Positions 3,384-40,808 of a DNA stretch of 64,000 nt are shown here, one piece after another. Made by a program: the position numbers and the translations under genes. The DNA comes from Pelomonas sp. Root405 (GTDB taxonomy: Bacteria; Pseudomonadota; Gammaproteobacteria; Burkholderiales; Burkholderiaceae_C). The notes beneath the pieces are model-generated. The model was not told the origin of the DNA and searched no databases. It saw nothing but the letters and a program-made list of their open reading frames with translations. Numbering within the stretch: the first letter of the stretch is position 1; the number at the start of each line of letters is the position of its first letter. Location of the stretch: positions 565,056 through 629,055 of the forward strand of contig NZ_LMDU01000014.1 of the NCBI RefSeq assembly GCF_001425165.1, written 5' to 3'.

Positions 3384-3404
3384 AGCCAGCAACCGCAATC
3401 ACGC

Positions 3405-6119: not shown

Positions 6120-6154
6120 ACGCTCCCCAAGACCAGCACAGCCGACACATTCCC

Positions 6155-8062: not shown

Positions 8063-8112
8063 GCACTGCCGACGCGCGAGCCATTCCATCCAAACAGAAA
8101 CCGCCTTCCCTC

Positions 8113-9210: not shown

Positions 9211-9242
9211 ACGCCCGCCCTGGCTCAGGGTCAGACACCCCC

Positions 9243-10859: not shown

Positions 10860-10933
10860 TCTTCGTGCGCGATTGGGTTGCCGCAGTCGAGGCACGGAGC
10901 GCCAGCTGCCCCGCAAGGGGCAAGGATTCCCTC

Positions 10934-13345: not shown

Positions 13346-13377
13346 ACGCCCGCTTCTCTCTCATCCCTCTATCGCTC

Positions 13378-13434
13378 ATGAACACGAGAACCGCCACGGC
13401 TCACCCGCGCGCTCACCATCCCACGCTGCGTTGA
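13378..13434 (+). other. Possible 18-codon leader ORF before GH31
   Basis: ATG at 13378 opens an 18-codon frame (MNTRTATAHPRAHHPTLR) that stops one base before the GH31 start codon. The arrangement would allow translational coupling or attenuation, but the ATG has no clear ribosome site and the peptide resembles nothing known. It may be chance. Confidence 0.2.
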
Positions 13435-13435
13435 C

Positions 13436-18348: not shown

Positions 18349-18383
18349 GTAGTCCACCGCCGCATATCTTTGAAAGAGTCCCC

Positions 18384-21907: not shown

Positions 21908-21911
21908 ACGC

Positions 21912-23372
21912 ATGAAGCTCAAGCACGCCCTCTTCACGTGCGTCGGCGCGCTCATGCTGTCAGTTGCCGATTCGACCGCTTCGGCCGCCCCTGAAGCGCC
22001 GCCCGTCAAGCCGCGCCTCGTCGTCCTCACCGACATCGAGAACGAGCCCGACGACACCCAGTCCCTCGTGCGGCTGCTGCTCTATGCCAACGACATCGAG
22101 CTGCGCGGCCTCGTGGCCACGACGTCGGTGCACATGAAGCAGGGCCTACATCCCGGGTCGATCAAACAGCTCATTCAGCGTTACGCCCAGGTGTTGCCCC
22201 GGTTGCGCCAGCACGACCGCGCCTACCCGGACGCCGCGCAGCTGCTGGCCCGCGTGGTGCCGGGCCAGCCCGGCTACGGCATGCAGGCCATCGGCGACGG
22301 GCGCGACAGCCCCGGCTCAGAGCTGCTGCTGCGCGAGCTTGAACGCGCCGACCCGCGCCCGCTGTGGGTCAGCGTCTGGGGCGGCGCCAACACGCTGGCG
22401 CAGGCCCTGCACAGCCTGCGCCGCACGCGCCCGAAAGACGCCGTCGACGCGGCCGTCAGCCGCCTGCGCGTCTACACCATCTCCGACCAGGACGACAGCG
22501 GCGCCTGGCTGCGCCGCGAGTTCCCGGGCCTCTTCTACATCGTCAGCCCCGGCAGCTATGCGCGCCCCACCTGGGCCGCGATGCACCGCGAGATCGAAGG
22601 CATCGACAACCAGCACGTCAGCAACGCCTGGATCGCGCGCCACATCCAGCAAGGCCACGGCCCGCTCGGCGCCGCCTACCCCGACATCGCCTACGGCATG
22701 GAGGGCGACACGCCCTCCTTCCTCGGCATCATTCCCAACGGCCTGAACGCGCCCGAGCACCCGAACTGGGGCGGCTGGGGCGGGCGCTACGAGCTCTACA
22801 CGCCGCGCCGCGAGGACACCGACCCTGATGGCTTCACCGGCGGCGTGCCCGTCGAGCAGGAGACGCGCCCGATCTGGACCAACGCCGTGGACCGCTACCG
22901 GCCCGTGGTTGCTTCAGCCTACGGCCGCCCGCTCAAGCCCGGGGCGCGTGAGTTCAACGATGCGCTCGTGACGCTGTGGCGCTGGCGCGATGCCATCCAG
23001 AACGACTTCGCCGCCCGCATGCTGTGGACGACGCGCGCGCCCGCCGAAGCCAACCACGCACCCGTCGCGCGCCTGGCCCACGCCGCCGAGCTGCGCGTGC
23101 GAGGCGGCGACTGGGTCACCCTCGACGCCACCCCCAGCAGCGACCCCGACGGCGACAGCCTGAGCTTTCTGTGGATCCCCTACCCCGAGGCCGGCACGCT
23201 GAAGGCTCCGCTGCCGCTGGGCGCCGAGGTTCAGCCTCGCATCTCGCTGCGTGCACCCGAAGTGGACGAGCCCGCCACCGCCCACGTCATCGTGCAGGTC
23301 ACCGACAAAGGCACGCCCGCCCTCACCCGCTACCAGCGCGTGATCCTGCACATCAAGCCGCAGGCAAGATGA
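21912..23372 (+). CDS. Sde0182-like secreted protein (DUF1593, nucleoside-hydrolase-like fold)
   Basis: 486 residues with a Sec signal (MKLKHALFTCVGALMLSVA). The N-terminal domain has RLVVLTDIENEPDDTQSLVR, the Asp cluster of the nucleoside hydrolase fold, and VSVWGGANTLAQAL. The C-terminal 110 residues (HAPVARLAHAAELRVRGGDW to LHIKPQAR) form a PKD/Ig-like sandwich. Members of this family are often secreted with plant polysaccharide enzymes and one is called a cellulose-binding protein. The reaction, if any, is not established. It sits four bases after the GH141-like gene in the same operon. Confidence 0.72.
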   Translation: MKLKHALFTCVGALMLSVADSTASAAPEAPPVKPRLVVLTDIENEPDDTQSLVRLLLYANDIELRGLVATTSVHMKQGLHPGSIKQLIQRYAQVLPRLRQHDRAYPDAAQLLARVVPGQPGYGMQAIGDGRDSPGSELLLRELERADPRPLWVSVWGGANTLAQALHSLRRTRPKDAVDAAVSRLRVYTISDQDDSGAWLRREFPGLFYIVSPGSYARPTWAAMHREIEGIDNQHVSNAWIARHIQQGHGPLGAAYPDIAYGMEGDTPSFLGIIPNGLNAPEHPNWGGWGGRYELYTPRREDTDPDGFTGGVPVEQETRPIWTNAVDRYRPVVASAYGRPLKPGAREFNDALVTLWRWRDAIQNDFAARMLWTTRAPAEANHAPVARLAHAAELRVRGGDWVTLDATPSSDPDGDSLSFLWIPYPEAGTLKAPLPLGAEVQPRISLRAPEVDEPATAHVIVQVTDKGTPALTRYQRVILHIKPQAR

Positions 23373-24762
23373 TCAGCACCACCGCACGCCAACGCCCGCA
23401 CACCATGACCCGGCCGGCAGCGTCGTCGCCCGCGCCAGCGTGCCCGCAAGCCGCATGGCCGCCGATGCCAGCCTGGACGCGACGGCGCAACTGAGCGTCA
23501 CGGCGCCGCGGCTGTGGTGACTGGAGGCGCCGCAGCGCTACACGCTGACGACCGTCGTCAAGCGCGGCGCCGAGGTGGTCGACCGCGTCGACACGCCGTT
23601 CGGCATCCGTACGATCCGCTTCGATGCCAACCAGGGCTTCTTCCTCAACGGCCGCCACGTCAAGCTGCACGGCGTCAACAACCACCAGGACCATGCCGGC
23701 ATCGGCGTGGCGCTGCCGGACGGCATGCACGAGGCGCGGTTGAGGATGCTCAAGGTGGTGGGCGTGAACGCCATCCGCTCGGCCCACAACCCCGCCACGC
23801 GCGAGCTGCTGGAGGCCTGTGATCGCTTGGGCATGCTCATCATCGACGAGCACCGCATGATGGGCACGGCGCCGCAGATCCGTGACGAGTTAGAGCGCAT
23901 GGTGCGCCGCGGGCGCAACGATCCGTCGGTCATCCTTTGGTCGGTCGGCAACGAGGAATGGGCGATCGAGAACAGCGAGATCGGCACCCGGCTGACGCAG
24001 CAGATGACGGCCATCGTCAAGCGCCTGGACCCGACGCGACCGGTGACGCAGGCCGCCTCCAGCTCGGGCCAGCCGCAAGGCACGTCGGCGGGCGCAGAGG
24101 TCATCGGTTTCAACTACAAGGGCCAGCTTGACATCGACGCCATGCACCGGCGCTTCCCCGACCGGCCCATGCTTGTCAGCGAGGAAGGTGCGACGCATGC
24201 CACGCGCGGCGTCTACGCCAACGATCCGGCGCGCGCCCACGTCGCCGCCTACGACAAGCGCACGGGCGCCAGCTACACCTCGTCCATCGAGGAAGGCTGG
24301 CGCTTCGTCGCCGAGCGCCCCTTCCTGGCCGGCATGTTCGTCTGGACCGGCTTCGACTATCGCGGCGAGACCACCCCGTTCGGCTGGCCGGCCGTCTGCT
24401 CGGCGAGGTGACGCCGGGCGTGCAGTTCCATCTCGACGGCCGTGCGGTCACACCGCGCCAGGAGGCCGGTATGGCGGCCATCGACCTCGACCCGGCCGCA
24501 GGGGCCCGAGGCGACGCTGACCGCCGTCTTCCCGACACCCGCAGGCGGCACGCGCGCGTTGTTCGACGCCGCCCAGAGCGGCCGCCGCTGGGCGACGCTG
24601 CGCACCACCACACCGGCTGCACCGTGGCAGCGCAGCTTGTTCAACGGCCAGACCCAGGTGATCCTGCAGCCCACTGGCAAGACCGGGGACAGTGGCCGCG
24701 CGACGCTGCGCGCCGTCAGTGACGGCCTGGCCTCGGCGGCGACGGTGATCGAGATCTTTTGA
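23373..24762 (+). pseudogene. Decayed GH2 beta-galactosidase
   Basis: Remains of a family 2 enzyme. The N-terminal sugar-binding domain is missing. The Ig-like domain reads through SVVARASVPASRMAADASLD to PRLW, then hits an in-frame TGA (23518-23520) inside the conserved PRLW-x-LEAPQRYTL segment. The barrel continues in the same frame to 24411 and keeps the catalytic GNEEW and MLVSEEGATH motifs. After FDYRGETTPFGWPAV the frame breaks, and a large piece is absent. The tail (GQTQVILQPTGKTGDSG to TVIEIF) sits in another frame and stops at 24760-24762. At least one nonsense, two frame changes and two deletions make function implausible. Confidence 0.82.
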
Positions 24763-25372: not shown

Positions 25373-26908
25373 TCACTCCTCCAAAGCGACCACCATCACG
25401 GCCTTGGCAGGCACCTTGATCGACAGCTTGCCGCCTGCGGCACGCGTGCTGAACGCGGCGGGCTTGATGACCTGCGGGTTCTGGAAGGTGTTGTGCGCGT
25501 CCATCGCGGCCGAGGTCAGCACCCTGCCGGCCGCACCGTTGACCTTCGTGCCGCTCACGTTGACGGCGACATCAACCGCCTTGTGCGGATCGGTGTTGAC
25601 CAGCGACAGGTAGACCTTGCCGTCTTTGGCACGCGCCGCCGAAGCGCTCACGCCCGGAATGGTCGTCGTGCCCAAGCTGTAGCTTGTGTTGTCCTTGATC
25701 GCCGTCGGCAGCGACTTGGCGTCCTGGAACGGCGCATACATCTGGAAGGCGTAGTAGGTCGGCGTCAGGACCATCTTCTCCTTCTCCGTCAGAATCATCG
25801 CCTGCAGCACGTTGACCATCTGGGCGATGGTCGTCATGGGGACCCGCTCGGCATGCTCATGGAAGATGTGGAAGTTGAGCGCCGCCACCAGCGCGTCGCG
25901 CAGGGAGTTCTGCTGGAACAGCCCGCCTCGGGGGTTCACTTCGTCATACCAGGTGCCCCACTCGTCGATCATCAAACCGATCTTCTTCTCGGGGTCGTTC
26001 TTGTCCAGCACGGCCACGTGATCCTTGATGAGCTGATCCATCTTCAAGGTGTTGGCCAGGGTCGAGATCCACTCGCCTTCCTTGAAGCCGAGGTCCTTGC
26101 CCTTGAGCTCCCATTTGCCGGTCGGGACGGTGTACTGGTGGACGGTGATGCCGATCGTGCGGCCCTTGAGTTCCTTGCTCAGGACTTGCGTCCACGCGGT
26201 GTCGAAGCCGCTGCCGCCGCTGGCGATCATCTTCGGCCGGGACTTCTCGGGTGCCCACAGGAAGTGTTCGTAGTTGCTGTAGAGGTTGGCGTAGTAGTCG
26301 GGCTTCATGTTGCCGCCGCAGCCCCACAGCTCATTGCCGATGCCGAAGTAGGCGACCTTGAACGGCTTCTCGCGGCCGTTCTGCGCGCGCAGCCTGGCCA
26401 GCGGCGAGCCGCCCTCCGCCGTCATGTACTGGACCCAGTCGGCCATCTCCTGCACCGTGCCGGTACCGACGTTGCCGTTGACGTAGGCATCGGCGCCGAT
26501 CATCTCGATCAGGTCGAAGAACTCGTGGGTGCCGACGGCGTTGATCTCTTCGACCTTGTCCCCGTGGATGTTGCTCGGGCGCTTGTCCTGCGGGCCGATG
26601 CCGTCGCGCCAGTGGTAGGTGTCGGCGAAGCAGCCGCCCGGCCAGCGCACCAGCGGCACCTGCAAGGCCTTGAGCGCGCCGACGACGTCATTGCGCCAGC
26701 CCCGGGTGTTGGGGATGGTCGACTTGGTGCCGACCCACATGCCTTCGTAGACGCCGGTGCCGAGGTGTTCGGCGAACTGGCCGTACACGTACTTGTTGAT
26801 GACCGGGCCAGGCTTGCCGGCGTCGATGTGGATGCTGACCGTGTTGGCGGCAAAGGCCGGCGCCGCGACCAGGCCGAGAACGGCGAGGCCGTGTTTGAGG
26901 GTGTTCAC
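25373..26908 (-). CDS. GH51 alpha-L-arabinofuranosidase
   Basis: 511 residues from a GTG start, with a Sec signal (MNTLKHGLAVLGLVAAPAFA). The barrel shows the acid/base motif GIGNELWGCGG (Glu193) and nucleophile motif GLMIDEWGTWYD (Glu316), plus VRWPGGCFADTYHWRDGIGP, all diagnostic of family 51. The C-terminal beta domain ends TRAAGGKLSIKVPAKAVMVV. It releases arabinofuranose from arabinan, arabinoxylan or arabinoxyloglucan fragments. With the signal it is probably periplasmic. It follows the GH43 gene in the minus-strand operon, 58 bases away. Confidence 0.92.
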   Translation of the reverse strand: MNTLKHGLAVLGLVAAPAFAANTVSIHIDAGKPGPVINKYVYGQFAEHLGTGVYEGMWVGTKSTIPNTRGWRNDVVGALKALQVPLVRWPGGCFADTYHWRDGIGPQDKRPSNIHGDKVEEINAVGTHEFFDLIEMIGADAYVNGNVGTGTVQEMADWVQYMTAEGGSPLARLRAQNGREKPFKVAYFGIGNELWGCGGNMKPDYYANLYSNYEHFLWAPEKSRPKMIASGGSGFDTAWTQVLSKELKGRTIGITVHQYTVPTGKWELKGKDLGFKEGEWISTLANTLKMDQLIKDHVAVLDKNDPEKKIGLMIDEWGTWYDEVNPRGGLFQQNSLRDALVAALNFHIFHEHAERVPMTTIAQMVNVLQAMILTEKEKMVLTPTYYAFQMYAPFQDAKSLPTAIKDNTSYSLGTTTIPGVSASAARAKDGKVYLSLVNTDPHKAVDVAVNVSGTKVNGAAGRVLTSAAMDAHNTFQNPQVIKPAAFSTRAAGGKLSIKVPAKAVMVVALEE

Positions 26909-26966: not shown

Positions 26967-28556
26967 TCATTGCCCGACGCGGTAGTAGTCAAAGTCCACC
27001 CGTCCGCCGGCGGTCTTGGTCGAGTAATAGAACAGGCCGTAGCGGTAACCCATGAAGTGCGGGAAGGTGTAGGCCAGGCGCGAGGGGCGGCCGATGGGCG
27101 TCCACGATTTGCCGTCGAGGCTGTAGGAAAACCGGGCGAGTTCGGGCGCAGGCTCGAACTCGCAGTCGACCTTGAGGTGCACGGTCTTGCCGGACAGCGG
27201 AATGGACGCGACTTCCTCGGGCTTGTCGGATTCGGCGCTGACCATCACCAGCGATCTGGCGCCGTCGCTCATCTTTACGCCAACAAAACCGTACTGTCTC
27301 TGGAAGGCGGCCAGGCCGGCCCAGTCGCCGTCCTTCATGCCGCTCACGTCGATGCGGGTGGTGGCCGAACTGCGTGGGCCGAAGCTGCGTTGCGTGAGGG
27401 TGTTGCGCGCCTCCAGCAGCGTGGGAACGACCCGGCTCGTGGCCAGGCTCAGGTGGCCCGGGCGCTGGGTCAGAGACCAGTCACCCGGCACGGGGTTGTG
27501 GTTCCATTGCCAGGCCAGGGGCAGCTCGGGGTCGCCAGCGCGGCGGTCGAATTCGTCGGAGGCGACGATGCCCGAGGCGCCAGAGACGCCCTGCGCGCCG
27601 GCGGGGATATCCAGCGTCATGGGCACCTTGCCGTCTTTGCCAAGCACGGGCCAGCCGTCCTTCCAGGTCACGGGCACGAGGTAGGGGATGCGGCCGACGG
27701 CGGCGTTGTCCTTGAAGAGGTAGGCGTACCACTTGCCTTCCGGCGTGTCGATGAGGCCGCCCTGGGCGATGCCACGGTCATCGAGCGCGATGCGGCTTTC
27801 GTAGGGGCCGTCGAGGCTGTCGGCGCGACTGATGATGACGGTGCGCGCCCAGCGGCTGCCGGGCGAGGCGATGTTGAAGAGGTAGTAGCGCCCGTTGGCC
27901 TTCACAAGCTGCGAGCCCTCGCCCTTGAGCCCGCCCTGGTCGGCGCCGAACAGGGCGTTGACGCTTTCGACGAGGGTCTTGTTCACGCCGCCGGGCTTGA
28001 TGCCGGAGAGATCGGGCTTCAGCTCGATGAGCATGATGCGACCGCTGCCGTAAACCATGTAGACGCGGCCGTCGTCGTCGAAGAACAGGCTGTGGTCACC
28101 CAGCGAGGGCTCGAAGCTCGTCGCCTTCCACGGGCCGCGATCAGGGTCGCGCGTGGTGTAGATGTGGGTGCGCCCGGTGTTGGCCGAGAACGTCGACGCG
28201 TGGAACACGCCGTCGTGGTAGCGCAGGCTGCTGGCCCACGAGCCCTCACCATAGGCGCTCTTGCCGTTGGCGAGGTTGAGGGCGTCGTTGTCGGCCAGGG
28301 TTTCGTAGGCGTAGGACGCCATGCGCCAATTGACCAGATCGGTCGACTTCATTATTGGCAGACCCGGGCTCATGTGCATGGTCGTGCTGCTCATGTAGTA
28401 GGTCTTGCCGACCCGGATGATGGCGATGTCCGGGACGTCGGCCCAGATCAGCGGGTTGCGGGCAGAAGCCGTCTGTGACGCTTCGGCCGCCGCAACGCCC
28501 TGGGGCGCGACCGAGAGTGCGAGGACCATCAGCAGCGGAGAAATCGCGCGCTTCAT
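26967..28556 (-). CDS. GH43 (subfamily 12-like), paralogue of the plus-strand copy
   Basis: 529 residues. The ATG at 28556 is chosen since it opens a Sec signal (MKRAISPLLMVLALSVAPQG); an in-frame ATG at 28643 would add 29 polar residues. The protein starts NPLIWADVPDIAIIRVGKTY and matches the 9243-10859 product almost throughout, including STTMHMSPGLPIM, LKGEGSQLVKANGRYYLFN and the C-terminal sandwich ending GGRVDFDYYRV. Probable alpha-L-arabinofuranosidase or beta-xylosidase. The two copies are inverted relative to each other, about 16 kb apart. Confidence 0.87.
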   Translation of the reverse strand: MKRAISPLLMVLALSVAPQGVAAAEASQTASARNPLIWADVPDIAIIRVGKTYYMSSTTMHMSPGLPIMKSTDLVNWRMASYAYETLADNDALNLANGKSAYGEGSWASSLRYHDGVFHASTFSANTGRTHIYTTRDPDRGPWKATSFEPSLGDHSLFFDDDGRVYMVYGSGRIMLIELKPDLSGIKPGGVNKTLVESVNALFGADQGGLKGEGSQLVKANGRYYLFNIASPGSRWARTVIISRADSLDGPYESRIALDDRGIAQGGLIDTPEGKWYAYLFKDNAAVGRIPYLVPVTWKDGWPVLGKDGKVPMTLDIPAGAQGVSGASGIVASDEFDRRAGDPELPLAWQWNHNPVPGDWSLTQRPGHLSLATSRVVPTLLEARNTLTQRSFGPRSSATTRIDVSGMKDGDWAGLAAFQRQYGFVGVKMSDGARSLVMVSAESDKPEEVASIPLSGKTVHLKVDCEFEPAPELARFSYSLDGKSWTPIGRPSRLAYTFPHFMGYRYGLFYYSTKTAGGRVDFDYYRVGQ

Positions 28557-28655
28557 GAGGCGGGCCGGAGAGCCGGTGGTCGTGCGGCTCGGGCTGTCAG
28601 GGTGTTTGTCCATGTCTCGGGTCATTGCGAATCCGGGGAGCACGCCTCGGCCGTC

Positions 28656-30248
28656 TCAGCGCGCCTGGCGCGCATACAGCGCGAAAGCGAAGTCCGCGGG
28701 CCGGCCGTCCTTGTCCTTCAGCGGCCGGTCATCGAGGGTCGCCTCGCCGTCGGCATAAACGTCGCTGCGGCTGGCACGCAGATTGATCGTCACCGCGTCT
28801 TTCTCGCCCTGCAGCGCCAGTGCGTAGCGGCGACCGGACTTCAGCACGATGGACGGATGGGCGCCGAAGTCGAAAGTCAGCAGGCCGGCGCCTTGCGGCC
28901 GGTAGGCGATGGCCAGGCCCTCGCCGGCGCCGAGCAGTTCGGTGCCCGCCTCCACGTCGCGCAGCGACAGGCGCAGCGAGCGCGTGGCGTCGGTGCCGTG
29001 GCCGTCACCGGCATACAGGCTCAGCCGGCCCAGCGGGATGTCGGCGCGCGGCACGAAGGTCTGCGTCAGGCGGGTCGAGCCGCCGTCTCGGTTGAAGCCG
29101 ATGGGCTCGGGCGTCTGCTCGAAAGGCCGGGTGACCGAGGCCAGTGCCGGGTCGCCCGGCCAGGTGTCGGGATAGCCCTGAGCGAACTGCTGGACGGCCA
29201 CACGCGGGTCAGAGCGGCCCGGGTCCGCCAGCGCCGCCACCTTGCCGGTGGGCGGCTGCGGCGGCTTGCTGACGCCCGCCTCGGTCTGCCTGACCGGCCA
29301 CATGCGACCGTCGGCGTCGTAGTGGAGGTACTCCATCGCGACGGAGCGGCGGCTGCCGGCGCCGGTCTCGCCGTTCAGGGTCAGGCCGGCGTTGTGATAA
29401 ACAAGATAGGACTGGCCCTTGAAGTCGTCGATGAGGCCCGCGTGGATGGTGAAGCTGTTGGGCACCGGCCCGGTCAGCAGGCCTTGATAGGTCCAGGGCC
29501 CGCGCGGGCTGGGCGCGGTGGCATAGGACAGGTGCTCGAAGAGACCTTGATGCGCCATGGACGCGTAGGTCATGTAGTACATCCCCTTGCGCTTGGACAG
29601 CCACGGCCCCTCGGTGTAGTTGGGCAGCGCGATCTTTTCGATGGGGCAGTCCAGCTCGGTCATGTTGGCCTTGAGCTTGGCCAGGTACAGCACCGGGTTG
29701 CCCCAGGCCAGCCAAGCTGTGCCGTCGTCGTCGATGAAGACGGTGGGGTCGATGTCGTTCCAGCCGTAGGGGCCGGGCGTCGTGGCATCAGTGACCAGCG
29801 CGGACCCGCGCGCATCCTTGAACGGGCCCAGCGGGTTGTCGGCCACCGCGACGCCGATGGCCTTGCCCTGGTGGGTGTTGTCGTGCTGCACGGTGGCGTA
29901 GAAATAGAAGCGGCCGTTGCGCTGCACCACCTGTGCGGCCCAGGCGTCGCCCACCGCCCACTTGAAGTCGGTGGGCTTCATGAAGGCGCCGTGGGCGGTC
30001 CAGTGGCGCAGGTCCTTGGACGAATAGGCCACCCACTCCTTCATCAGGAAGAAGTCGTTGCCCTTGGCCTCGTCACGACCGGCATAGAGGTAAACCGTGT
30101 CGCCCACGACCAGCGGTGCGGGGTCGGCGGTGAAGCGGTCCCGCAGCACGGGGTTGGCGCCGGGCGCCGGCTCCGCCGCATGCGCGGCCGCGCAGGCAAG
30201 GGCCGCACAGCAGACGGTGAGGTGTTGCACAAAGCTGGGGAGGCGCAT
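28656..30248 (-). CDS. GH43 glycosidase with C-terminal beta-sandwich
   Basis: 530 residues with a Sec signal (LTVCCAALACAAAHA). The propeller has FTADPAPLVVGDTVYLYAGR (base Asp), NDIDPTVFIDDDGTAWLAWG and NYTEGPWLSKR (acid Glu), and resembles the GH43-CBM6 protein at 1989-3383 in its catalytic half. The C-terminal 170 residues (GYPDTWPGDPALASVTRPFE onwards) form a beta-sandwich that is not CBM6-like by eye. Arabinan- or xylan-directed arabinosidase or xylosidase activity is expected. It is the first hydrolase after the halogenase in the minus-strand operon. Confidence 0.84.
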   Translation of the reverse strand: MRLPSFVQHLTVCCAALACAAAHAAEPAPGANPVLRDRFTADPAPLVVGDTVYLYAGRDEAKGNDFFLMKEWVAYSSKDLRHWTAHGAFMKPTDFKWAVGDAWAAQVVQRNGRFYFYATVQHDNTHQGKAIGVAVADNPLGPFKDARGSALVTDATTPGPYGWNDIDPTVFIDDDGTAWLAWGNPVLYLAKLKANMTELDCPIEKIALPNYTEGPWLSKRKGMYYMTYASMAHQGLFEHLSYATAPSPRGPWTYQGLLTGPVPNSFTIHAGLIDDFKGQSYLVYHNAGLTLNGETGAGSRRSVAMEYLHYDADGRMWPVRQTEAGVSKPPQPPTGKVAALADPGRSDPRVAVQQFAQGYPDTWPGDPALASVTRPFEQTPEPIGFNRDGGSTRLTQTFVPRADIPLGRLSLYAGDGHGTDATRSLRLSLRDVEAGTELLGAGEGLAIAYRPQGAGLLTFDFGAHPSIVLKSGRRYALALQGEKDAVTINLRASRSDVYADGEATLDDRPLKDKDGRPADFAFALYARQAR

Positions 30249-30342: not shown

Positions 30343-31836
30343 TCAGACCCGGCGCTCAGCCAGCATCTTGAGCAGCGTGAAGTGGTGAGGCGGCATGCGC
30401 TCCACCGAGGCTTCGATGGCCTGACGGCGTTGGTCCAGCGCCGCAAGCGCACGCTCGCGCGGGATCTCGCCATACACCGGGTCGTGGCGCTCGGGCCAGT
30501 GGTCCATGCCGGCGTGGACGGCCAGCCAACTGGTCGCGTCGAAGCCCTCGTCGTCGTACTGGTGCAGCACGCCGTAGCGCCGCCATAGCTCCAGTTTGAA
30601 GGCCAGCGTCTCGGGCAGTTCCATCGATGACACGTGGCGCCACAGCGCGCTGTCGCGGCGGCGGGTCAGGCAGTAGTGCAGGATGATGAAGTCGCGGATG
30701 CGTGCAAAGCGCCGCGCGGCGCCGTCGTTGAACAGCGCCAGGTCCGACTCGTTGAGCGGGCGTCCCGCTGTTACTGCCGTCAGCGCAGCCATCAGCCGGC
30801 TGATGCCGTCCTGGATCAGGTAGATGCTGGTCGACTCCAGCGGCTCCAGGAAGCCCGAGGACAGGCCGATGGCGACGACGTTGTGCACCCAGAAGCGTTC
30901 ACGGTGGCCGGTGCTGAAGCGCAGCAGCCGCGGCTCTGCCAGCGGTTTGCCGTCGAGCCGGGCCAGCAGCTGTTCGCGCGCGCGGTCGGGGTCGATGAAA
31001 CGGCTCGCGAAGACGTGGCCGTGGCCTGTGCGGTTTTGCAGCGGGATGCGCCAGGCCCAGCCGCCTTCCAGCGCCGTGGCCTGGGTATACGGGGCCAGTT
31101 CTTCGCCAGTGCGCTCGCAGGGGCAGGCCCAGGCGCCGTCAACGGGCAGCCAGTGGCCGAAGTCGACGAAGGGCTCGTTCAGCGTCTTGCCCAGTAGCAG
31201 CGCGTTGAAGCCCGAGCAGTCGATGAAGAGGTCGCCCTCCACCCGCCGCCCGTCGTCAAGGTGCAGGGCCGCGACACCGCCGTCGGCCCGTCGCGACACG
31301 TCGGCGATACGCCCCTGCGTGTGCCGCGCATCGCGCTTGACCGCCAGTTCGCGCAGGAACGCCGCATACCTGACCGCATCGAAGTGATAGGCGTACTTGA
31401 ACTGCGCCTGCTCGCTCGGCAGAACGAAGCGCCCCTTCATTGCCATCACCGTGGGCACGCACTGCTGGCCCAGCGGTTCGGTCAGGCCCATGCGCCGATG
31501 CTGGGCCCACAGGGTCTGCGACCCGAACAGGTTGCCGAAATGGCCGAAGGTGTGGAAGTAGTCCTGGCCCACCTCCAGCCAGTCGCCAAAGCGGATGCCG
31601 AGCTTGTAGCTGCCGTTGGTGGCGCGCAGGAACTCGGCCTCGTCGATGCCCAGCAGCTGGTTGTAGTCGCGGATCGACGGGAAAGTGGCCTCGCCGACAC
31701 CGACGATGCCGATGTCTTCGGACTCGACCACCTCCACCGCCACGCGGCCTTTGAGCCCTGTGACGAGGGCAGCTGCCGTCATCCAGCCAGCGCTGCCTCC
31801 ACCCACGACGACGATGCGGTTAAACGTCTGCGACAT
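30343..31836 (-). CDS. Flavin-dependent (tryptophan-type) halogenase
   Basis: 497 residues from the ATG at 31836 (nine extra residues if 31863 is used). It shows the FAD-binding RIVVVGGGSAGWMTA, the conserved lysine in YKLGIRFGDW (Lys78, where family members have the haloamine-forming Lys), WAWRIP (the WxWxIP motif that separates halogenases from monooxygenases) and SGFLEPLEST with the catalytic Glu. All key elements are present. It uses reduced FAD, oxygen and halide. The substrate is unknown; homologues beside TonB-dependent receptors are common but their physiological role is unsettled. No flavin reductase gene is near. Confidence 0.88.
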   Translation of the reverse strand: MSQTFNRIVVVGGGSAGWMTAAALVTGLKGRVAVEVVESEDIGIVGVGEATFPSIRDYNQLLGIDEAEFLRATNGSYKLGIRFGDWLEVGQDYFHTFGHFGNLFGSQTLWAQHRRMGLTEPLGQQCVPTVMAMKGRFVLPSEQAQFKYAYHFDAVRYAAFLRELAVKRDARHTQGRIADVSRRADGGVAALHLDDGRRVEGDLFIDCSGFNALLLGKTLNEPFVDFGHWLPVDGAWACPCERTGEELAPYTQATALEGGWAWRIPLQNRTGHGHVFASRFIDPDRAREQLLARLDGKPLAEPRLLRFSTGHRERFWVHNVVAIGLSSGFLEPLESTSIYLIQDGISRLMAALTAVTAGRPLNESDLALFNDGAARRFARIRDFIILHYCLTRRRDSALWRHVSSMELPETLAFKLELWRRYGVLHQYDDEGFDATSWLAVHAGMDHWPERHDPVYGEIPRERALAALDQRRQAIEASVERMPPHHFTLLKMLAERRV

Positions 31837-31962
31837 GGTTCTCGCTGCCATCGTGATGGCCAAGCATGGACCTGGGTGATTTCAACTTGCACCTCACTGG
31901 GTTCGAAGCAGCGACCCGCGTTGAAACCGCCCTGGCGGCATGCGACTTCTGACCGGACGAGT

Positions 31963-34900
31963 TCAAAACTCGTAGCGAGCGCCCATGTTGTAGGTGCGAC
32001 CGGGGTAGAACCAGGCGCGGCCCATGTTGCCGATGTGCTGCTGCTGCGTCTGGCGCACGATGACGTCGTTCAGGTTGGTCACGTTCAGCGACAGACTCAG
32101 CTTGTCGCTGAACCGGTAGCTGATGCTGCCGTCCCACTGGCCGAAGCCCTCCTGCCAGGTCGGCAGGCCCCAGCCGACATCCCGTGCACCGGGCCGCGCG
32201 GGGTCCGCGCTGGTGGCGTCGGTGCCGCGCGTGCCGTTGGCATCGGTCGCCTGGAGGATGCGGCTGTGCCAGTTGTAGGCCAGCCGCGCCGACAGCGGGC
32301 CGCGGTCGTACATGATGATGAAGTTGGCCGAGTTCTTCGCCATATAGGGCAGTGGCAGGTCACGGAACGGCAGGCCGTTGGTGTCGCAGCCGAAGGCCTG
32401 CAGGGCAGCGGTGCTGGTCGCGTTGCCCGCGCCGCAATAGGGAATGTCGAACTCCTTGTAGAGCTTTTGCTTGCCGTCGATGTAGGTGTAGTTGGCCGAC
32501 ACGCCGAATCCCTTGGCCCACTCGGGCAACACGCCCGCCAGGAAGGGAAGGCGGTCAAGATAGGTCATGCCGGCGATCTCGATGCCGCTGACCGTGCCGC
32601 GCCCTACGTTGTCGGGGCCGCTGATGGCGAAGGTCTGCGGATTCCCCGCTGCACTCTTGTAGGTGCGGGTGTAGACCGTGTTCATGATGATGTCCTTGAC
32701 ATCCTTGTGGAACACCGTTCCCGTCAGCGACTGCCCGCCCTGCGGATACCACTCGAGCGCGAGGTCGAAGCTGTTGGCCGTGATGGGCTTCAGATTGACG
32801 TTGCCGTTGTTTCTGCCGGTGTAGGTCACGGTCTTGTTGGTGACGTCGTAGTTCTGGCTCAGCTCGATGTATTCGCGCAGCTTGTCGAAGCCGGGGCGGT
32901 TCATGCTCTGCGCCATGGCCAGGCGGGCCTGCAGCGTGTCGCTGAAATTCAGCTTGAGGTTCAACGATGGCAGCACATGGACGGCCTTCTTTTCCACGTT
33001 CAACGGCGCCTCGACCTCGTCGAAGCGAGGCAGGTCCGGCGGCGTCGTTGCGCTGTAAGTCGGCTTGAACTTCTCATAGCCATGGGACACCACATGCGTG
33101 TGCACGACACGCACGCCGAGGTTGCCTTCCAGCGGGAACTTCCAGTCATCGAAGCCGAACCGCAGCGTGCCGTACACCGACTGGGTGCGTTCGCTGTGCG
33201 AGCTCTTCTTGGATGGATCGTTGTCGTAGGTGAACGCCTTGAAGTTGTTGTAGGTGGCCGGGTCGCAATTGGCGGCCGGCTGGCCAAACAGCTGGGCGCC
33301 GTCCAGGCATTGCTGATAGCGGTACTCGTTGACCAGCGTCGCATAGGAGCCGGGATAGTCGCGCACCACGTCCAGCGTCGGCAGCACGATGTTGGGCAGC
33401 GTGCCGACCTTGCCGTTGTAGAACTTGCCGAAGTCGTAGACCTCGACGGGAACAGTGGCGTAGCGCGGATCGCTCATGTAGCCGAAGCTGCCACGCGACT
33501 GCCAGCTCTGTTCATCGGTGGGCAGCGGGGGGTTGCCTGGACGCGAGGTCTGGCGGACCGACCAGGGCTCGGCCACCGAGGTCCAGCCGTTGCCGCTGCC
33601 TTCCTGGCGGTCGGCGACACGGTAGGCGGTGCGGAACCCGAATCGGAAGTCGCGCAGCACGGGGTGCTCAAAGCGGAACCGCGCATCGGCCTTCCAGGCG
33701 TAGAGGTCGGCGTCCGCCTTGCTCTGGCCTGGCATGACGATGTTCCAGTAGTAGTTCTTTGGGTCCGCCAGGAAGGTGCGCGCCGCATCGTCGAAGCCGA
33801 TGCGAGCCGGGTCGGTGCCGCTCACGTCGACCGACATGCTAGGCACGAACGTGCCCAGCTGCACGCTGCCGCCAAAGCCCTCGGTCTTGGCGTGCACCCA
33901 TTGCAGGTCGTTCTCGACCTGCCAGCGGTCGTTGACTGTCCACTTGAACTTCCAGGCCAGCTCACCCGTCTGAGACTTGCTGCGGTTCCAGCCACGCGGG
34001 GCGGCGAAGCTCAGGCCGCCCTCGGCAAAGTCATTGGCGCCCAGGCCGCCGGACGGGTAGGTGTAGATGCCCGAGACGAGCACATTGCGGTCGTCGTACT
34101 TGGCGTCCTTGATCACCGATCGGTAGGCATTCTCGACGGTGGCATAGATGCCCTGCTCGCTGCCCTCCTCGCGCACGCCGGCGACGAAGTAGGTCAGCGC
34201 CGACTCCATGCGGTCCTTCTTCCACTGCAGGGCGCCGTAGAAGCCACCACGCTCGTTGTCACCGGTGTTGGTGCGGTAGGACGCCGACTTGGGCGCCCAC
34301 GCCGTCTGGCCCGCGATCAGATCGGTACGGGGGTAGTAGGCGTCGAGCTGGATGCTTTCGTTCTTGAAGCTGGAGTGGTTGTAGGACAGGTCGACCAGCA
34401 CGCCCACGCGACCCAGGTCGGTGTTCCATTGCGTCGTGTAAAGGCCGGAGACGTTGGGCGAACTCTTGCCCGAGCGCTGGGTGTAGTTGTTGCCCAGCGA
34501 CACGTAGGCCTTGGTGCCCTTGAAGTCGAAGGGCAGCGCGGTGCGCAGGTTCACCGTGCCGCTGACGCCGCCCTCGATGATCTCGCTGGACGGGTTCTTG
34601 TAAACGTCCACGCCAGCCATCAGCTCGGGTGGCACGTCGCCCCAGCTCAGCTCCCGGCCAGGCCAGCCGGCCGAGAAGGTCTCGCGGCCATTCAGCAGCG
34701 ACGAGCCCCAGCTGAGGCCGCGCACGCTGATGCCCGATCCCTCAACGGAAAAATGCTCCGGGTCGCCACGTGACTTGTTGCGGTCGATGGTGATGCCGAC
34801 CACGCGCTGCAGCACCTCCGTGATCGACTTGTCCGGCAACTTGCCGGCTTCTTCTGCCACGACCGAGTCGACGATCTCCTCGGCGTTCTGCTTGATCTTC

Positions 34901-35073
34901 TGTGCCGTCTGCAGCGCCGCGCGCTGCCCGGTGACAACGACGGTTTCAAGGTTGGCGGGCGTGGCGGGTGGCTTCTCCGTTGCCGACTGCGCCAGGGCCG
35001 CGCTGCCGACGGTCAGCAGCATCATGTGGACCATGCCGCGATGAATGGCCGTGGTGCGGAACTGTTTTTTCAT
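31963..35073 (-). CDS. TonB-dependent outer-membrane receptor
   Basis: 1036 residues. The ATG at 35073 follows a GGAGA ribosome site; an upstream ATG would add 12 residues. The signal peptide is followed by a TonB-box-like ETVVVTGQR. The plug domain (about 65-190) includes LPDKSITEVLQRVVGITIDR and ISVRGLSWGSSLLNGRE, and a 22-strand barrel ends in the aromatic terminal YEF typical of outer-membrane insertion. It probably imports xyloglucan or arabinan oligosaccharides. The lipoprotein gene upstream on the same strand may supply its surface binding partner. It is the only uptake gene in the window. Confidence 0.92.
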   Translation of the reverse strand: MKKQFRTTAIHRGMVHMMLLTVGSAALAQSATEKPPATPANLETVVVTGQRAALQTAQKIKQNAEEIVDSVVAEEAGKLPDKSITEVLQRVVGITIDRNKSRGDPEHFSVEGSGISVRGLSWGSSLLNGRETFSAGWPGRELSWGDVPPELMAGVDVYKNPSSEIIEGGVSGTVNLRTALPFDFKGTKAYVSLGNNYTQRSGKSSPNVSGLYTTQWNTDLGRVGVLVDLSYNHSSFKNESIQLDAYYPRTDLIAGQTAWAPKSASYRTNTGDNERGGFYGALQWKKDRMESALTYFVAGVREEGSEQGIYATVENAYRSVIKDAKYDDRNVLVSGIYTYPSGGLGANDFAEGGLSFAAPRGWNRSKSQTGELAWKFKWTVNDRWQVENDLQWVHAKTEGFGGSVQLGTFVPSMSVDVSGTDPARIGFDDAARTFLADPKNYYWNIVMPGQSKADADLYAWKADARFRFEHPVLRDFRFGFRTAYRVADRQEGSGNGWTSVAEPWSVRQTSRPGNPPLPTDEQSWQSRGSFGYMSDPRYATVPVEVYDFGKFYNGKVGTLPNIVLPTLDVVRDYPGSYATLVNEYRYQQCLDGAQLFGQPAANCDPATYNNFKAFTYDNDPSKKSSHSERTQSVYGTLRFGFDDWKFPLEGNLGVRVVHTHVVSHGYEKFKPTYSATTPPDLPRFDEVEAPLNVEKKAVHVLPSLNLKLNFSDTLQARLAMAQSMNRPGFDKLREYIELSQNYDVTNKTVTYTGRNNGNVNLKPITANSFDLALEWYPQGGQSLTGTVFHKDVKDIIMNTVYTRTYKSAAGNPQTFAISGPDNVGRGTVSGIEIAGMTYLDRLPFLAGVLPEWAKGFGVSANYTYIDGKQKLYKEFDIPYCGAGNATSTAALQAFGCDTNGLPFRDLPLPYMAKNSANFIIMYDRGPLSARLAYNWHSRILQATDANGTRGTDATSADPARPGARDVGWGLPTWQEGFGQWDGSISYRFSDKLSLSLNVTNLNDVIVRQTQQQHIGNMGRAWFYPGRTYNMGARYEF

Positions 35074-35235
35074 GGTGTCTCCGTATTCGTTCGATGTGTC
35101 CGGCGGCAACCGCGGTGCTCGGCGCTGCCGCTTGCCCTGGCGCCGGATGCCGGGGCCGCTCGTTGCGATGCTGGCGTCACAGTCCAGATCGGCGCCGGGG
35201 GCTGCTCGCTGACCTGCACGCCGCTCGCCGACTGG

Positions 35236-36648
35236 TTACTGGATGGTGATGGCGCCCTTGATGCTCAAGTCGGAGGCGAAGATGCCGGCGGTCTTCCTGT
35301 CCACGTTCGCATCCATCAACCAGAAGCGCGTACGGACGATGTTGGAGGACTGCAGCAGCGTCGCCGCCGAGGCGCGCGAGGCCGCCATCTTTTCCAGACC
35401 CGCCGCAAACGCTGCAGCGTTGACTGGCACGCCCGAGCTGTTGAACGGGTTGGGCAGCGTGCGCACATCGTTGTCCAGCGACGCCGTGGTGACGCCCGAC
35501 AGGCCACACGCCTCGGTCACCGCGAAGTTGCTCAGCGGCACGGCGTAGCCGATCAGCCCAGGCGCCGGCGCCCACACCAGGGTGCTCAGGGTGACGTTGC
35601 AGCCGTTGTTGCGCTTGCCCAGGTCCAGGTGCACGACGACGGGCTTGCCGGCCGAGTAGAGATCGGCGTTCAAGCCCAGGGTGAAGCCCAGCGCCTTCTC
35701 GGTGGTTACCTGCAGCCCGCCCGTCGTGTCGCCCGACCCATTGAAGCCGGTCAGGCCGGGCGCGAAGATGTCGATGCGGTTGAAGCTGTATTGCCAGCCA
35801 CCGGTGTACGCGGTGTCGCGGATATGCAGGGCCGACTCAAGCGTGGTGCCATCGGTGGAGACCGTGCTGTAGCACCAATCGCCTGCGCTGGCATCGCACC
35901 ATTCCCATCCCGCGTTCAACGGGCTGGCCCAGGGGTTGACCATGACGCCGCCGCCCTGCTTCGTGCGCAGGTTGTTCATGGTTCCGCGGCCGCCGCCCGG
36001 CGCGAAGCCGTCGGCGACCAGCAGCGGGTCGACGGCGATGAAGCGTTGCGTCGTCTGCTCCGAGTAGTTCTCATTGCCGGCCTGCTTGGCCGACACCGCG
36101 CAAGAGCCCTTGGCCAGCAGATTGAGCGTGCTGCCGCTGATGGCGCACACGGCCGGCGTGTCACTCGAGAACGTGACCGGCAGCCCCGAGTCCGCCGTCG
36201 CGCTGAGCGCGACCGATGTCGTGGCCGTGCTGAGCACATAGTCGGGCGGCGTAAACGCGACCACCTGCGCACGCTTCAACACGTTGAACAGTTGGCTCGT
36301 ATCGTCGGCCGCTGCCCACTTGACGCCGCTCGACCCCGCCCCGCCCGGCTGGCTGGCGATCACTAGGCATTCACCGGCAGCGACCAGCGTCAGCTGGTTC
36401 TCCCCCGCGACCGTGCAGGTGGTGGGCGTGCCGCTGCGGAAGCTGACCGGCAGGCCGGACGTGGCGGTGGCCACCAAAGTGGTCGGACCGTTCAGCAGGG
36501 TGTTGCCGCCCGGGTACTTGAAGTCGATGACTTGCAGCCGGCCTTCGGAGCCTCCGCTGCCTCCACCCCCGCCTCCGCAGGCGGCCAGAAAAGCGCAGGC
36601 CGCTGCAACGGTCAACTTGCGCGCCTGCGGAACCAACTTTTTCGCCAC
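35236..36648 (-). CDS. Ig-like lipoprotein, candidate surface glycan-binding protein
   Basis: 470 residues from a GTG at 36648 preceded by AGGAGA; the longer ATG frame lacks such a site. Lipobox LAAC (Cys24) and a glycine run follow. Two Ig-like repeats each have the pattern SGLPVxFxSxTPxxCxxxG then LxxxAxGxCxxxAxQ (about residues 60-115 and 150-210). The C-terminal 260 residues (NPWASPLNAGWEWCDASAGD onwards) are not recognised, are rich in aromatic residues and have paired cysteines. First gene of the minus-strand operon, directly before the TonB-dependent receptor, so a SusD-like binding role is inferred, not shown. Confidence 0.7.
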   Translation of the reverse strand: MAKKLVPQARKLTVAAACAFLAACGGGGGGSGGSEGRLQVIDFKYPGGNTLLNGPTTLVATATSGLPVSFRSGTPTTCTVAGENQLTLVAAGECLVIASQPGGAGSSGVKWAAADDTSQLFNVLKRAQVVAFTPPDYVLSTATTSVALSATADSGLPVTFSSDTPAVCAISGSTLNLLAKGSCAVSAKQAGNENYSEQTTQRFIAVDPLLVADGFAPGGGRGTMNNLRTKQGGGVMVNPWASPLNAGWEWCDASAGDWCYSTVSTDGTTLESALHIRDTAYTGGWQYSFNRIDIFAPGLTGFNGSGDTTGGLQVTTEKALGFTLGLNADLYSAGKPVVVHLDLGKRNNGCNVTLSTLVWAPAPGLIGYAVPLSNFAVTEACGLSGVTTASLDNDVRTLPNPFNSSGVPVNAAAFAAGLEKMAASRASAATLLQSSNIVRTRFWLMDANVDRKTAGIFASDLSIKGAITIQ

Positions 36649-36916
36649 GTTCTGTCTCCTGTTTTTTGATTGAACTGGGGCACCTGACTTCAGAGCCTGA
36701 ACTGCAGCCATTTAGTTCGGCCATCGCACCAACTATTTGTTGCCGAGAAAACCGCCTTGGGGTGCCTTGTCTGGGCCTGCCGGGCGACCAGCAGACCTTG
36801 GGCGTCCTCCAGAATCACTTTCAGATGCCGTGCCGCAAGCGTACAACTGGTATGACCAACTGGACATAGGGCAAACTCCTGGACTGACCACATCTGTCAT
36901 TTTTTGGAGACTGCCT
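36649..36916. promoter_or_regulatory. Divergent promoter region between lipoprotein and halogenase
   Basis: This 268-base gap separates the minus-strand receptor operon from the plus-strand halogenase, so it must hold both promoters. It contains one palindromic element (36845-36861, listed separately) and is less GC-rich than its surroundings. No convincing -35/-10 pair was identified by eye. Confidence 0.6.
36845..36861. promoter_or_regulatory. Candidate GntR-type operator AACTGGTATGACCAACT
   Basis: TGGT-ATG-ACCA is an inverted repeat extended by AAC/ACT flanks. It resembles the TGGT..ACCA core of FadR/UxuR/ExuR-type GntR operators. It sits centrally in the divergent promoter region, a position suitable for controlling both directions. 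No regulator gene is in the window to pair with it. Confidence 0.35.
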
Positions 36917-38446
36917 GTGCGAAATCGTCCACTTCAGCGCATCGTCATCGTGGGCGGCGGCAGCGCAGGCTGGATCACCGCCGCGCCGCTGGCGCGCATG
37001 CTGTGCCGGCCTGATCAACCCGATCAGCATTGCGAGGTGGTGCTGGTGGAGTCGGCGGACATCGGCACCGTGGGTGTCGGCGAAGCGACCTTGCCCACCA
37101 TCCGGTTCTACAACCAGATGCTGGGCATCGACGAGGCCGACTTCGTGCGCCGCACCCGTGCCACCTTCAAACTCGGCATCGAGTTCCAGGACTGGGGTCG
37201 CATGGGCAACCGCTTCTTCCACGGCTTTGGCGGGTTCGGCCCGGCCATTCACAACCGCCCGCTGTGGGCCTACTGGCTGCGTCTGCAGGCGCTGGGCGAC
37301 AAGCTGCCTTCCTACGAGGAATGGTCGACCGCGACGGTGATGGCTCGCCAGATGCGCTTCACCCCGCCGACCTCCGGCGAGCCAGCTGCGTCCAACGCCT
37401 TCGACTACGCCTTTCACTTCGACGCGTCGCTGTACGGCGCCTACCTGCGCGACTACGCGCTGCGACACGGCGCCGAGCGCGTCGAGGGCACCATCACGCG
37501 CGTCGAGACGCGCCCCGACGACGGTTTCGTGGCCGCGCTGCACCTGGATGACGGGCGCCGGCTGGAGGGAGACCTCTTCATTGACTGCTCCGGCTTTCGT
37601 GCCTTGTTGATCGGCGGTGCGATGAACTCGCCCTACGAGGACTGGAGCCACTGGCTGCCCTGCGACCGCGCGCTGGCAGTGCCGAGCGAGCGTGTCGAGC
37701 CCATCACGCCCTACACAAGGTCGACGGCCCGCACCGCGGGCTGGCAATGGCGCATCCCGCTGCAGCACCGCACCGGCAATGGCCTGGTCTACTGCAGCGG
37801 CTACCTGAACGAAGACGAGGCGCAGCGCATGCTGCTCGATAACCTCGACGCCAAACCGCTCGACGAGCCGCGCCCTCAGCGCTTCGTCACCGGGCGACGC
37901 AAGCAGGGCTGGGTCAAGAACGTGGTGGCCATCGGCCTGTCGTCGGGCTTTCTGGAGCCGCTGGAATCCACCAGCCTGCATCTCATCATGGACGGCGTCA
38001 GTCGCCTGACCGCCATGCTGCCGGACCTGTCATTCCAGCCCGCGCTGGCGGACGAGTTCAACCGGCAGATGGCCTACCGCTACGAGTCCGTGCGCGACTT
38101 CATCATCCTTCACTACAAGCTCGGTGAACGGCGTGACAGCGAGTTCTGGCGCTACTGCGCCGACATGCCGATACCCGACGAGCTCGCGCATCAGATTGAA
38201 CTGTTCCGCAAGACCGGCCGCGTCGCCGTGATCGAGCCCGAGGGCTTTGCCGAGCCGTCATGGGCCTCCATCCTGATGGGCCTGGGCGTCTACCCCGAGC
38301 GTTACGACCCCTACATCGATCTGGTGGACCCGCAGCTCATCCGCCGGCAGCTCCACTCGGTGCACGGCGCGATCTCCCGCACGGTGGCGGCCATGCCCGC
38401 GCACGCGGACTTCCTGGGCAGGATCTCAACACCGCCGCGTCGCTGA
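36917..38446 (+). CDS. Second flavin-dependent (tryptophan-type) halogenase
   Basis: 509 residues from a GTG at 36917, eight bases after GGAGA; the frame is open further upstream but lacks a ribosome site there. It shows RIVIVGGGSAGWITA (FAD), FKLGIEFQDW (catalytic-type Lys85), WQWRIP (WxWxIP motif) and SGFLEPLEST (catalytic Glu). All expected catalytic motifs are intact. It is clearly related to the halogenase at 30343-31836, sharing HFDA, RRLEGDLFIDCSGF and VVAIGLSSGFLEPLES blocks, but is diverged. Read divergently from the receptor operon. Substrate unknown. Confidence 0.88.
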   Translation: MRNRPLQRIVIVGGGSAGWITAAPLARMLCRPDQPDQHCEVVLVESADIGTVGVGEATLPTIRFYNQMLGIDEADFVRRTRATFKLGIEFQDWGRMGNRFFHGFGGFGPAIHNRPLWAYWLRLQALGDKLPSYEEWSTATVMARQMRFTPPTSGEPAASNAFDYAFHFDASLYGAYLRDYALRHGAERVEGTITRVETRPDDGFVAALHLDDGRRLEGDLFIDCSGFRALLIGGAMNSPYEDWSHWLPCDRALAVPSERVEPITPYTRSTARTAGWQWRIPLQHRTGNGLVYCSGYLNEDEAQRMLLDNLDAKPLDEPRPQRFVTGRRKQGWVKNVVAIGLSSGFLEPLESTSLHLIMDGVSRLTAMLPDLSFQPALADEFNRQMAYRYESVRDFIILHYKLGERRDSEFWRYCADMPIPDELAHQIELFRKTGRVAVIEPEGFAEPSWASILMGLGVYPERYDPYIDLVDPQLIRRQLHSVHGAISRTVAAMPAHADFLGRISTPPRR

Positions 38447-40639: not shown

Positions 40640-40682
40640 GTCGGCGTTCTCCTGGTCGGGGAGCACGACCGGGCAAACGAGG

Positions 40683-40698
40683 CACCCGAACGGGTGCA
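40683..40698. promoter_or_regulatory. Palindrome GCACCCG-AA-CGGGTGC upstream of the dehydrogenase
   Basis: A perfect 7-bp inverted repeat with a two-base centre lies 44 bases before the dehydrogenase start, in the region divergent to the zinc-ribbon gene. Symmetry and position suit a dimeric repressor operator. No matching regulator is nearby. Confidence 0.35.
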
Positions 40699-40704
40699 CA
40701 ACAG

Positions 40705-40759
40705 AGCGCACTACCGGGCGCACTACCGGGCGCACTACCGGGCGCACCACCGGGCGCCG
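40705..40759. repeat. 12-bp tandem repeat GGGCGCACTACC, about 4.6 copies
   Basis: Units start at 40705, 40717, 40729, 40741 and 40753 (partial). The first and fourth have single changes. The array lies between the dehydrogenase and the zinc-ribbon gene. It would encode repeated PVVR if translated on the minus strand, but lies upstream of the real start. Confidence 0.85.
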
Positions 40760-40808
40760 GATTTGCTCGCACCTCACACCGCCTCACGCGAATGCCAAGG
40801 AGCCCGAC

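Follow-up and report, generated by a model that had tools for sequence, protein, structure and literature searches.

Two intact flavin-dependent halogenases flank a TonB-dependent receptor and a lipoprotein in a probably hexuronate-regulated module of Pelomonas sp. Root405

The closest described relatives of the two flavin-dependent halogenases studied in this work (W1 and W2) are BrvH from Brevundimonas BAL3 (structure 6frl; PMC5945002) and Xcc4156 from Xanthomonas campestris (structure 6y1w; PMC7336383). W1 and W2 are encoded beside a TonB-dependent receptor and a lipoprotein in a 64,000-nucleotide stretch of Pelomonas sp. Root405 DNA, which is referred to as the window (C14:565056-629055; C numbers denote contigs, L numbers denote loci, and positions without a prefix are those of the window). 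The genome examined comprises 5.81 Mb in 18 contigs. BrvH has low activity in brominating indole at C3 and does not accept tryptophan; mutation of its lysine inactivates the enzyme, and the authors consider indole doubtful as the natural substrate (PMC5945002). Xcc4156 acts on indoles and not on free tryptophan, and neither BrvH nor the published Xanthomonas halogenases have a known native substrate (PMC7336383). A second halogenase is encoded upstream of brvH, and this pairing (42.7% identity) resembles that of W1 and W2 (49% identity). However, TonB is absent from the main text of PMC5945002, no regulon is described in the section of it that was covered, and the text of PMC7336383 contains neither TonB nor a gene cluster.

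Both W1 (30343..31836, minus strand) and W2 (36917..38446, plus strand) are flavin-dependent halogenases of the PF04820 family with intact catalytic residues. The PF04820 match spans profile positions 1-455 of 458 in W1 (536.8 bits) and 1-457 of 458 in W2 (595 bits), with a cut-off of 21 bits. Both proteins keep GGGSAGW, the lysine of YKLGI/FKLGI, WxWxIP, and the glutamate of FLEPLEST. The GxGxxG motif, the lysine together with its role, and WxWxIP are also described for BrvH, which has the same motifs as W2 (PMC5945002). The best solved match of W2 is BrvH (502.5 bits) and the best solved match of W1 is Xcc4156 (411.3 bits). PyrH (293.6 bits for W2 and 296.2 bits for W1), PrnA, RebH, and similar enzymes reach at most 296 bits (rounded), so that BrvH and Xcc4156 are closer. 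W1 and W2 are predicted members of this BrvH/Xcc4156 (indole-type) subgroup.

The two halogenases bracket the receptor (31963..35073, minus strand) and the lipoprotein (35236..36648, minus strand), and W2 is divergent from the lipoprotein gene. The receptor matches TIGR01782 over its full length (1-868 of 868; 568.6 bits, cut-off 310). The minus-strand order continues from lipoprotein, receptor, and W1 to a glycoside hydrolase family 43 (GH43) gene 94 bp downstream of W1 (28656..30248; PF04616, 160.4 bits), a GH43 gene with GH43_C2 (26967..28643; PF04616 and PF17851), a GH51-type arabinofuranosidase gene (25373..26908; PF06964, 157 bits; NCBIfam ArfA-like match below its cut-off), and two small open reading frames (ORFs) without a Pfam match. 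A single minus-strand transcript is plausible because the gaps between neighbours are only 12-162 bp. Start codons were chosen by our own reading. ATG 31836 was preferred to TTG 31863 of the listed ORF for W1, ATG 35073 (with GGAGAC ahead of it) to TTG 35109 for the receptor, and GTG 36917 to TTG 36737 for W2, while the lipoprotein starts at GTG 36648 after GGAGAC.

The lipoprotein carries an LAAC lipobox and has no Pfam or NCBIfam match in the profile scan. Its orthologues keep the lipobox and the N-terminal part, and two unlike C-terminal parts occur among them, so that the C-terminal module is variable. The fold model suggests Ig-like domains, whose strands are visible. Nothing beyond these domains is claimed because the model is poor (mean predicted local distance difference test score, pLDDT, 56.3). 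Foldseek ranks S-layer, nucleoporin, and cadherin chains highest and gives weak matches to surface glycan-binding protein SGBP-B (rank 30) and to carbohydrate-binding modules.

The linkage of halogenases to receptors is far above chance in this genome. The genome encodes 16 PF04820 proteins with a whole-domain match (17 matches, one of them a fragment), which form 11 clusters, and 23 TIGR01782 receptors over the cut-off. Eight of the 11 clusters have a receptor at no more than 10 kb (null mean 1.07), and for six the distance is 500 bp or less (null mean 0.30). None of 20,000 random placements reached the observed proximity (P <= 5e-5). The linkage and the intactness of the bracketing pair, both claimed in an earlier note on this DNA, are thus borne out.

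Similar linkage was identified in other genomes. Among 80 loci retrieved with W2-type queries, which were picked by halogenase and not by receptor, a whole or partial receptor is present in 64, with a receptor-halogenase gap of at most 500 bp in 53 of them, and is missing from 16. Four genomes were read by eye with receptors accepted at E <= 1e-60 and weak PF04820 fragments of two assemblies (G001, 307 kb; G004, C27) dropped. Six of eight halogenase clusters lie within 600 bp of a receptor in Caulobacter sp. HMWF025, two of three are near one in Altererythrobacter xiamenensis, and two of three are about 2 kb from one in Pseudoxanthomonas NC8, an assembly with many frame breaks. Neither of two clusters is near a receptor in a Dokdonella metagenome-assembled genome. 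One locus of that frame-broken Pseudoxanthomonas sp. NC8 assembly (L055) encodes a W2-type halogenase (63%), whose presence in a gammaproteobacterium is a possible case of transfer. The linkage also occurs in the alphaproteobacteria Erythrobacter, Maricaulis, and Henriciella.

The arrangement of linked genes recurs as well. In 39 of 60 neighbour pairs less than 3 kb apart, the halogenase follows the receptor in the same direction, and the gap is below 300 bp in 46. Of 70 receptors, 14 have a halogenase within 3 kb on each side, some in Roseateles and, as separate cases, some in Erythrobacteraceae and other groups. On a tree of 85 receptors (eight of 93 matches were dropped as covering fewer than 900 model positions), whose long branches meet, the label 'linked' requires 7 changes compared with 13.9 for shuffled labels; linked receptors are clustered yet spread across several receptor clades. 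Strict co-evolution of halogenase and receptor was considered and found weak support (rho 0.34 overall between their distances, with 0 of 999 permutations as high).

A publication that ties halogenases to TonB receptors in glycan loci was absent from the matches listed, which were judged by title, start of abstract, and term counts. The subgroup of W1 and W2 is known, and the statement in the earlier note that such neighbourhoods had already been described may be right. Reads of tryptophan 7-halogenase in the wheat rhizosphere are reported at 71% for heritage versus 27% for modern cultivars (PMC12145609). That KEGG label could cover receptor-linked halogenases like W1 and W2.

The module is conserved in relatives. 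The nearest named loci to W2 are those of Pelomonas sp. Root1217 and Root1237 (91-92%). The order W1, receptor, lipoprotein, W2 is kept in five of the six closest loci (L019-L022 and L024); the sixth (L023) is without W1. L019 and L022 are not clean cases because W1 of L019 is split in two at the end of a contig and the W1 match of L022 is longer than usual. The diverged loci L020, L023, and L024 have 50-54% identity in the receptor and 32-61% in the lipoprotein, while W1 remains at 77-84% (L020 and L024) and W2 at 73-78% (L020, L023, and L024). Lipoprotein, receptor, W1, and W2 are, as judged from these comparisons, predicted to form one conserved uptake module of the Roseateles lineage.

The aligned divergent stretch between lipoprotein and W2 (7 sequences) exhibits paired near-palindromes of the type TGGTnnGACCA, which are FadR/ExuR-like. 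The window has the operator-like palindrome TGGTATGACCA at 36848..36858 (plus strand) and, 32 bp beyond it, the operator-like site TGGACTGACCA at 36880..36890 (plus strand), which has one mismatch to TGGTNNGACCA. The composite pair occurs once in the genome and is absent from the reversed control. Taken singly, one-mismatch sites are not uncommon in the window (5 found, 2.33 expected). Fifteen chosen intergenic stretches hold 28 sites in 2,881 bp, compared with 33 in the other 203,463 bp of 8 sequences, a test that is partly circular because the motif was derived from the 7 lipoprotein/W2 stretches. The remaining 8 stretches (1,479 bp) contain 11 sites. Sites occur in four of these eight: upstream of GntR2 on contig C4, between GntR1 and the DUF5597 gene on C4, between GntR2 and a second receptor in L020, and between GntR and the DUF5597 gene in L024. 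A scan for promoters and terminators was uninformative (1 promoter-like site with 0.8 expected and 7 terminator-like sites with 5.4 expected).

Candidate regulators were identified beside W2 in relatives. In L020, L023, and L024 a GntR-FCD gene stands 42-86 bp from W2, with a second one next to it in L020; in L021 a relative is located 2.2 kb from W1. These 42-86 bp gaps leave no room for a precursor-peptide gene between W2 and GntR. The two best GntR-FCD matches of this genome (71%) are tandem genes on C4, and the identical TGGACTGACCA 11-mer stands about 20 bp ahead of both. Four one-mismatch sites stand ahead of the adjoining DUF5597/GH35-type gene. The NCBIfam matches of the C4 regulators to LldR, NanR, ExuR, and UxuR are all below cut-off. 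The C4 locus (C4:308-47208; L014, L118, and L015) also contains GH95 and GH43 genes, ChvE/GguA/GguB transport genes that score over cut-off, and genes related to altronate/galactarate dehydratase and tagaturonate reductase, whose NCBIfam matches fall below cut-off. This gene content makes a hexuronate effector likely. The locus is flanked by the halogenases C4c (66% to W2) and C4d (70% to W1), a further copy of the two-type halogenase arrangement. Adjoining C4d is a 1445-aa ORF with Big_5, LamG, PKD, and cytochrome c domains. Both window halogenases are probably hexuronate-regulated, with predicted operators, because the palindromes recur before the C4 GntR-FCD genes and orthologous regulators adjoin W2 in three relatives.

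The module was compared with two described types of glycan loci. A CUT locus of Xanthomonas unites a receptor, degradative enzymes, an inner-membrane transporter, and a regulator in one region (PMC1790865). The module likewise has a TonB receptor adjoining plant-glycan enzymes, but it is at most a partial CUT locus because transporter and regulator families are missing among its scanned genes; the transporter and putative regulator (ChvE/GguAB and GntR-FCD) are on C4. Moreover, the main text of PMC1790865, the part that was searched, contains no halogenase or tryptophan. The xyloglucan utilization locus of Xanthomonas (XyGUL; PMC8245568) shares GH31, GH74-like, and SASA-type esterase genes with a plus-strand run of the window (352..24411), which possibly starts before the window. 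This run consists of GH29, GH43 with carbohydrate-binding module CBM6, two GH31, GH97, GH62, BNR/GH74-like, SASA esterase, alpha-galactosidase, and other genes, where GH numbers were derived from Pfam names and the GH74 label from BNR/Sortilin hits. However, the main text of PMC8245568 has no halogenase, and the halogenase module here lies on the opposite strand. The earlier note had placed the halogenases in a xyloglucan locus. A xyloglucan-type run does adjoin, but the halogenases belong to a separate, convergent minus-strand run with the two GH43 genes and the GH51-type gene. Their palindromes are common instead to GntR-FCD genes of a uronate/galactan locus, and none stands ahead of the plus-strand run inside the window.

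We tentatively propose, at somewhat less than even probability, that the module is a hexuronate-induced uptake module in which active W1 and W2 halogenate an endogenous indolic or tryptophan-bearing molecule during glycan feeding. An ExuR/UxuR-like GntR-FCD regulator encoded on another contig would control it, and hexuronates from the breakdown of pectin or glucuronoxylan would induce the receptor, the lipoprotein, the arabinan-type hydrolases, and both halogenases together. W1 and W2 would be cytosolic and of the bromide-preferring BrvH/Xcc4156 kind, driven by oxygen, halide, and FADH2 (reduced flavin adenine dinucleotide) from a reductase encoded elsewhere. The substrate would be an endogenous small indole or peptide, which we favour over a plant aromatic carried by the glycan, and glycan feeding would trigger the halogenated product.

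Several findings weigh against this proposal. The locus has no indole source or PF01613 flavin reductase, as the earlier note had observed: no indole-biosynthesis family is among the scanned ORFs of the window (some smaller ORFs are outside the scan), and the only flavin reductase of the genome in PF01613, the one reductase family searched, is at C11:491348. Structure 9luq, named 'Tryptophan halogenase' by its depositors, is also close (490 bits for W2 and 385 bits for W1). The slower divergence of the halogenases says little on the substrate because surface proteins often outpace enzymes in evolution. The correlation of halogenase and receptor distances barely extends past close relatives (rho 0.15 under 40% receptor identity, and 0.10, p 0.71, within this genome). 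As for the operators, 17 of the 28 sites are in the 7 stretches used to read the motif and are not independent, and four of the remaining eight stretches are without a site (upstream of GntR1 in L020, upstream of GntR in L023, and the upstream gaps of the window receptor and W1). Control of the lipoprotein side is less sure because the window sites lie about 200 bp from its start, at 26-58 bp from W2.

Other cassettes contain partner genes that are absent from the window module. Two loci of this genome combine receptor and halogenases with SapC and Cupin_8 genes, a third has two Cupin_8 genes, and the sole DUF6445 gene of the genome adjoins one of these loci. DUF6445 homologues occur in 10 of 106 loci (including L046:14783-15472) and lie 43-117 bp from a co-directional halogenase in eight of the ten. 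The term DUF6445 is in no paper among the literature matches listed for halogenase, SapC, and DUF6445. The DUF6445 (PF20043) alignment has invariant HxD, H, and R, the motif of 2-oxoglutarate (2OG)-iron oxygenases. The model (pLDDT 91.6) matches OGFOD1 (Z 14.6, root-mean-square deviation 2.8, 175 residues), the P. putida prolyl hydroxylase with EF-Tu (Z 12.7, 3.1, 161 residues), and the small-molecule enzyme PasI (Z 14.1, 3.5, 175 residues). DUF6445 is predicted to have a 2OG-iron oxygenase-like fold, and this fold says nothing on the substrate.

Some cassettes also contain halogenase paralogues that appear dead, of which the window module has none. Three of 146 halogenase matches were dropped before counting (two fragments and one fused). 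Nine paralogues of 405-494 residues from other, mostly alphaproteobacterial, genomes are without the lysine, the glutamate, or both (L050, L053, L064, L076, L082, L089, L093, L095, and L097), and both residues are kept in 133 of 134 paralogues outside this low-scoring group. In eight of the nine loci, 3-4 halogenase genes form an array in which the dead copy comes second, flanked by intact ones, and the stretch includes a whole or fragmentary receptor; L097 has two halogenase copies and no receptor in the stretch. The nine form one clade (support 0.999), although long branches reduce its certainty. Their retention under selection is suggested because the ratio of nonsynonymous to synonymous substitution rates is about 0.41 in the unsaturated one of two tested pairs. 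This genome also has a paralogue without lysine and glutamate (C1:23272-24657; L018:9138-10673). It is conceivable, though quite unlikely, that receptor-linked halogenases, DUF6445/Cupin_8-type hydroxylases, and dead partners form an oxidative protein or peptide modification system of TonB-dependent glycan uptake.

Four other explanations were weighed. Pectic arabinan and galactan side chains can be feruloylated, and the halogenases might modify or detoxify an aromatic arriving with the glycan, such as this ferulate or a plant defence indole. The W1 run does hold GH43/GH51-type genes, the operator-sharing C4 locus is of galactan/uronate type, and BrvH accepts indole (PMC5945002). However, the five genes below W1 include no esterase or aromatic-catabolism family, and two of them are without any match. 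Halogenase flanks are varied, with 118 Pfam families over 98 flanking proteins of L019-L074 (102 selected from 755 called ORFs, minus the lipoproteins of L019, L021, L022, and L024). Among the 25 commonest flank families, which were the ones listed, the leading ones are LacI regulators (7), DUF6445 (6), DUF5597/GH35-42 type (5), and alpha-amylase (4). The occurrence of the linkage in Erythrobacter, Maricaulis, and Henriciella also speaks against this explanation. A plant aromatic, the substrate suggested by the earlier note, therefore finds no direct support and is considered unlikely. Overall, the observation made in that note is confirmed and its interpretation is supported in part. A further idea, that W1 and W2 make a halogenated antibiotic or signal which is released on contact with plant polysaccharide, is also regarded as doubtful. 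Halogenated indoles are bioactive, the operator is common to feeding genes, and a zinc alcohol dehydrogenase and a weak P450 match less than 7 kb from W2 could be tailoring enzymes, but the conservation of the dehydrogenase is weak and the scanned neighbours include no synthase, exporter, or resistance family.

Bromination of the receptor, the lipoprotein, or another envelope protein on tryptophan before export is very unlikely. BrvH and Xcc4156 have been proposed to act on a peptide (PMC7336383), some receptor-linked cassettes hold Cupin_8 and DUF6445 with its OGFOD1-like model, and two tryptophans of the lipoprotein, W132 and W271, do not vary across 7 orthologues. Against this, the lipoprotein is present in only 6 of 90 loci, the window module has none of DUF6445, SapC, and Cupin_8, and the DUF6445 model fits small-molecule oxygenases about equally. 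Receptor tryptophans were rejected as a general substrate. No tryptophan column is general to the 70 linked and absent from the 15 unlinked receptors (28.9 and 14.5 after weighting; best column 0.53 versus 0.10), a comparison that ancestry confounds because the unlinked set stems from this genome alone. The loss of halogenation by W1 and W2 in favour of another redox role is highly improbable. Dead paralogues do exist in other genomes and at C1:23272, but every checked catalytic residue is kept in W1 and W2, as in nearly all paralogues outside the low-scoring group.

Three further genes lie beyond W2. The zinc alcohol dehydrogenase (39485-40777) has weak matches alone (26-28%), in 2 of 90 loci. 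The P450 match (44050-45192; 43.9 bits) is 6 kb past W2 in an ORF of unusual codon-position make-up. A protein of the PF05118 aspartyl/asparaginyl beta-hydroxylase family (46413-47330) adjoins a lipid A acyltransferase gene and has no visible tie to the halogenases.

BrvH-type halogenases are numerous, as the whole-domain PF04820 proteins of this genome illustrate. With a 2OG-iron hydroxylase-like partner and dead paralogues in other receptor-linked cassettes, there are hints of multi-enzyme tailoring coupled to the uptake of nutrients and not of classical antibiotic biosynthesis. If the oxidative modification system exists, receptors, surface glycan-binding proteins, or a peptide signal would be brominated or hydroxylated when glycan is present, and the window module, with two halogenases, would represent the simplest version of the system. 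The tie of W1 and W2 to a module that is likely hexuronate-controlled points to an inducer and a regulator gene and offers a pair of genes that can be deleted in the search for their substrate.

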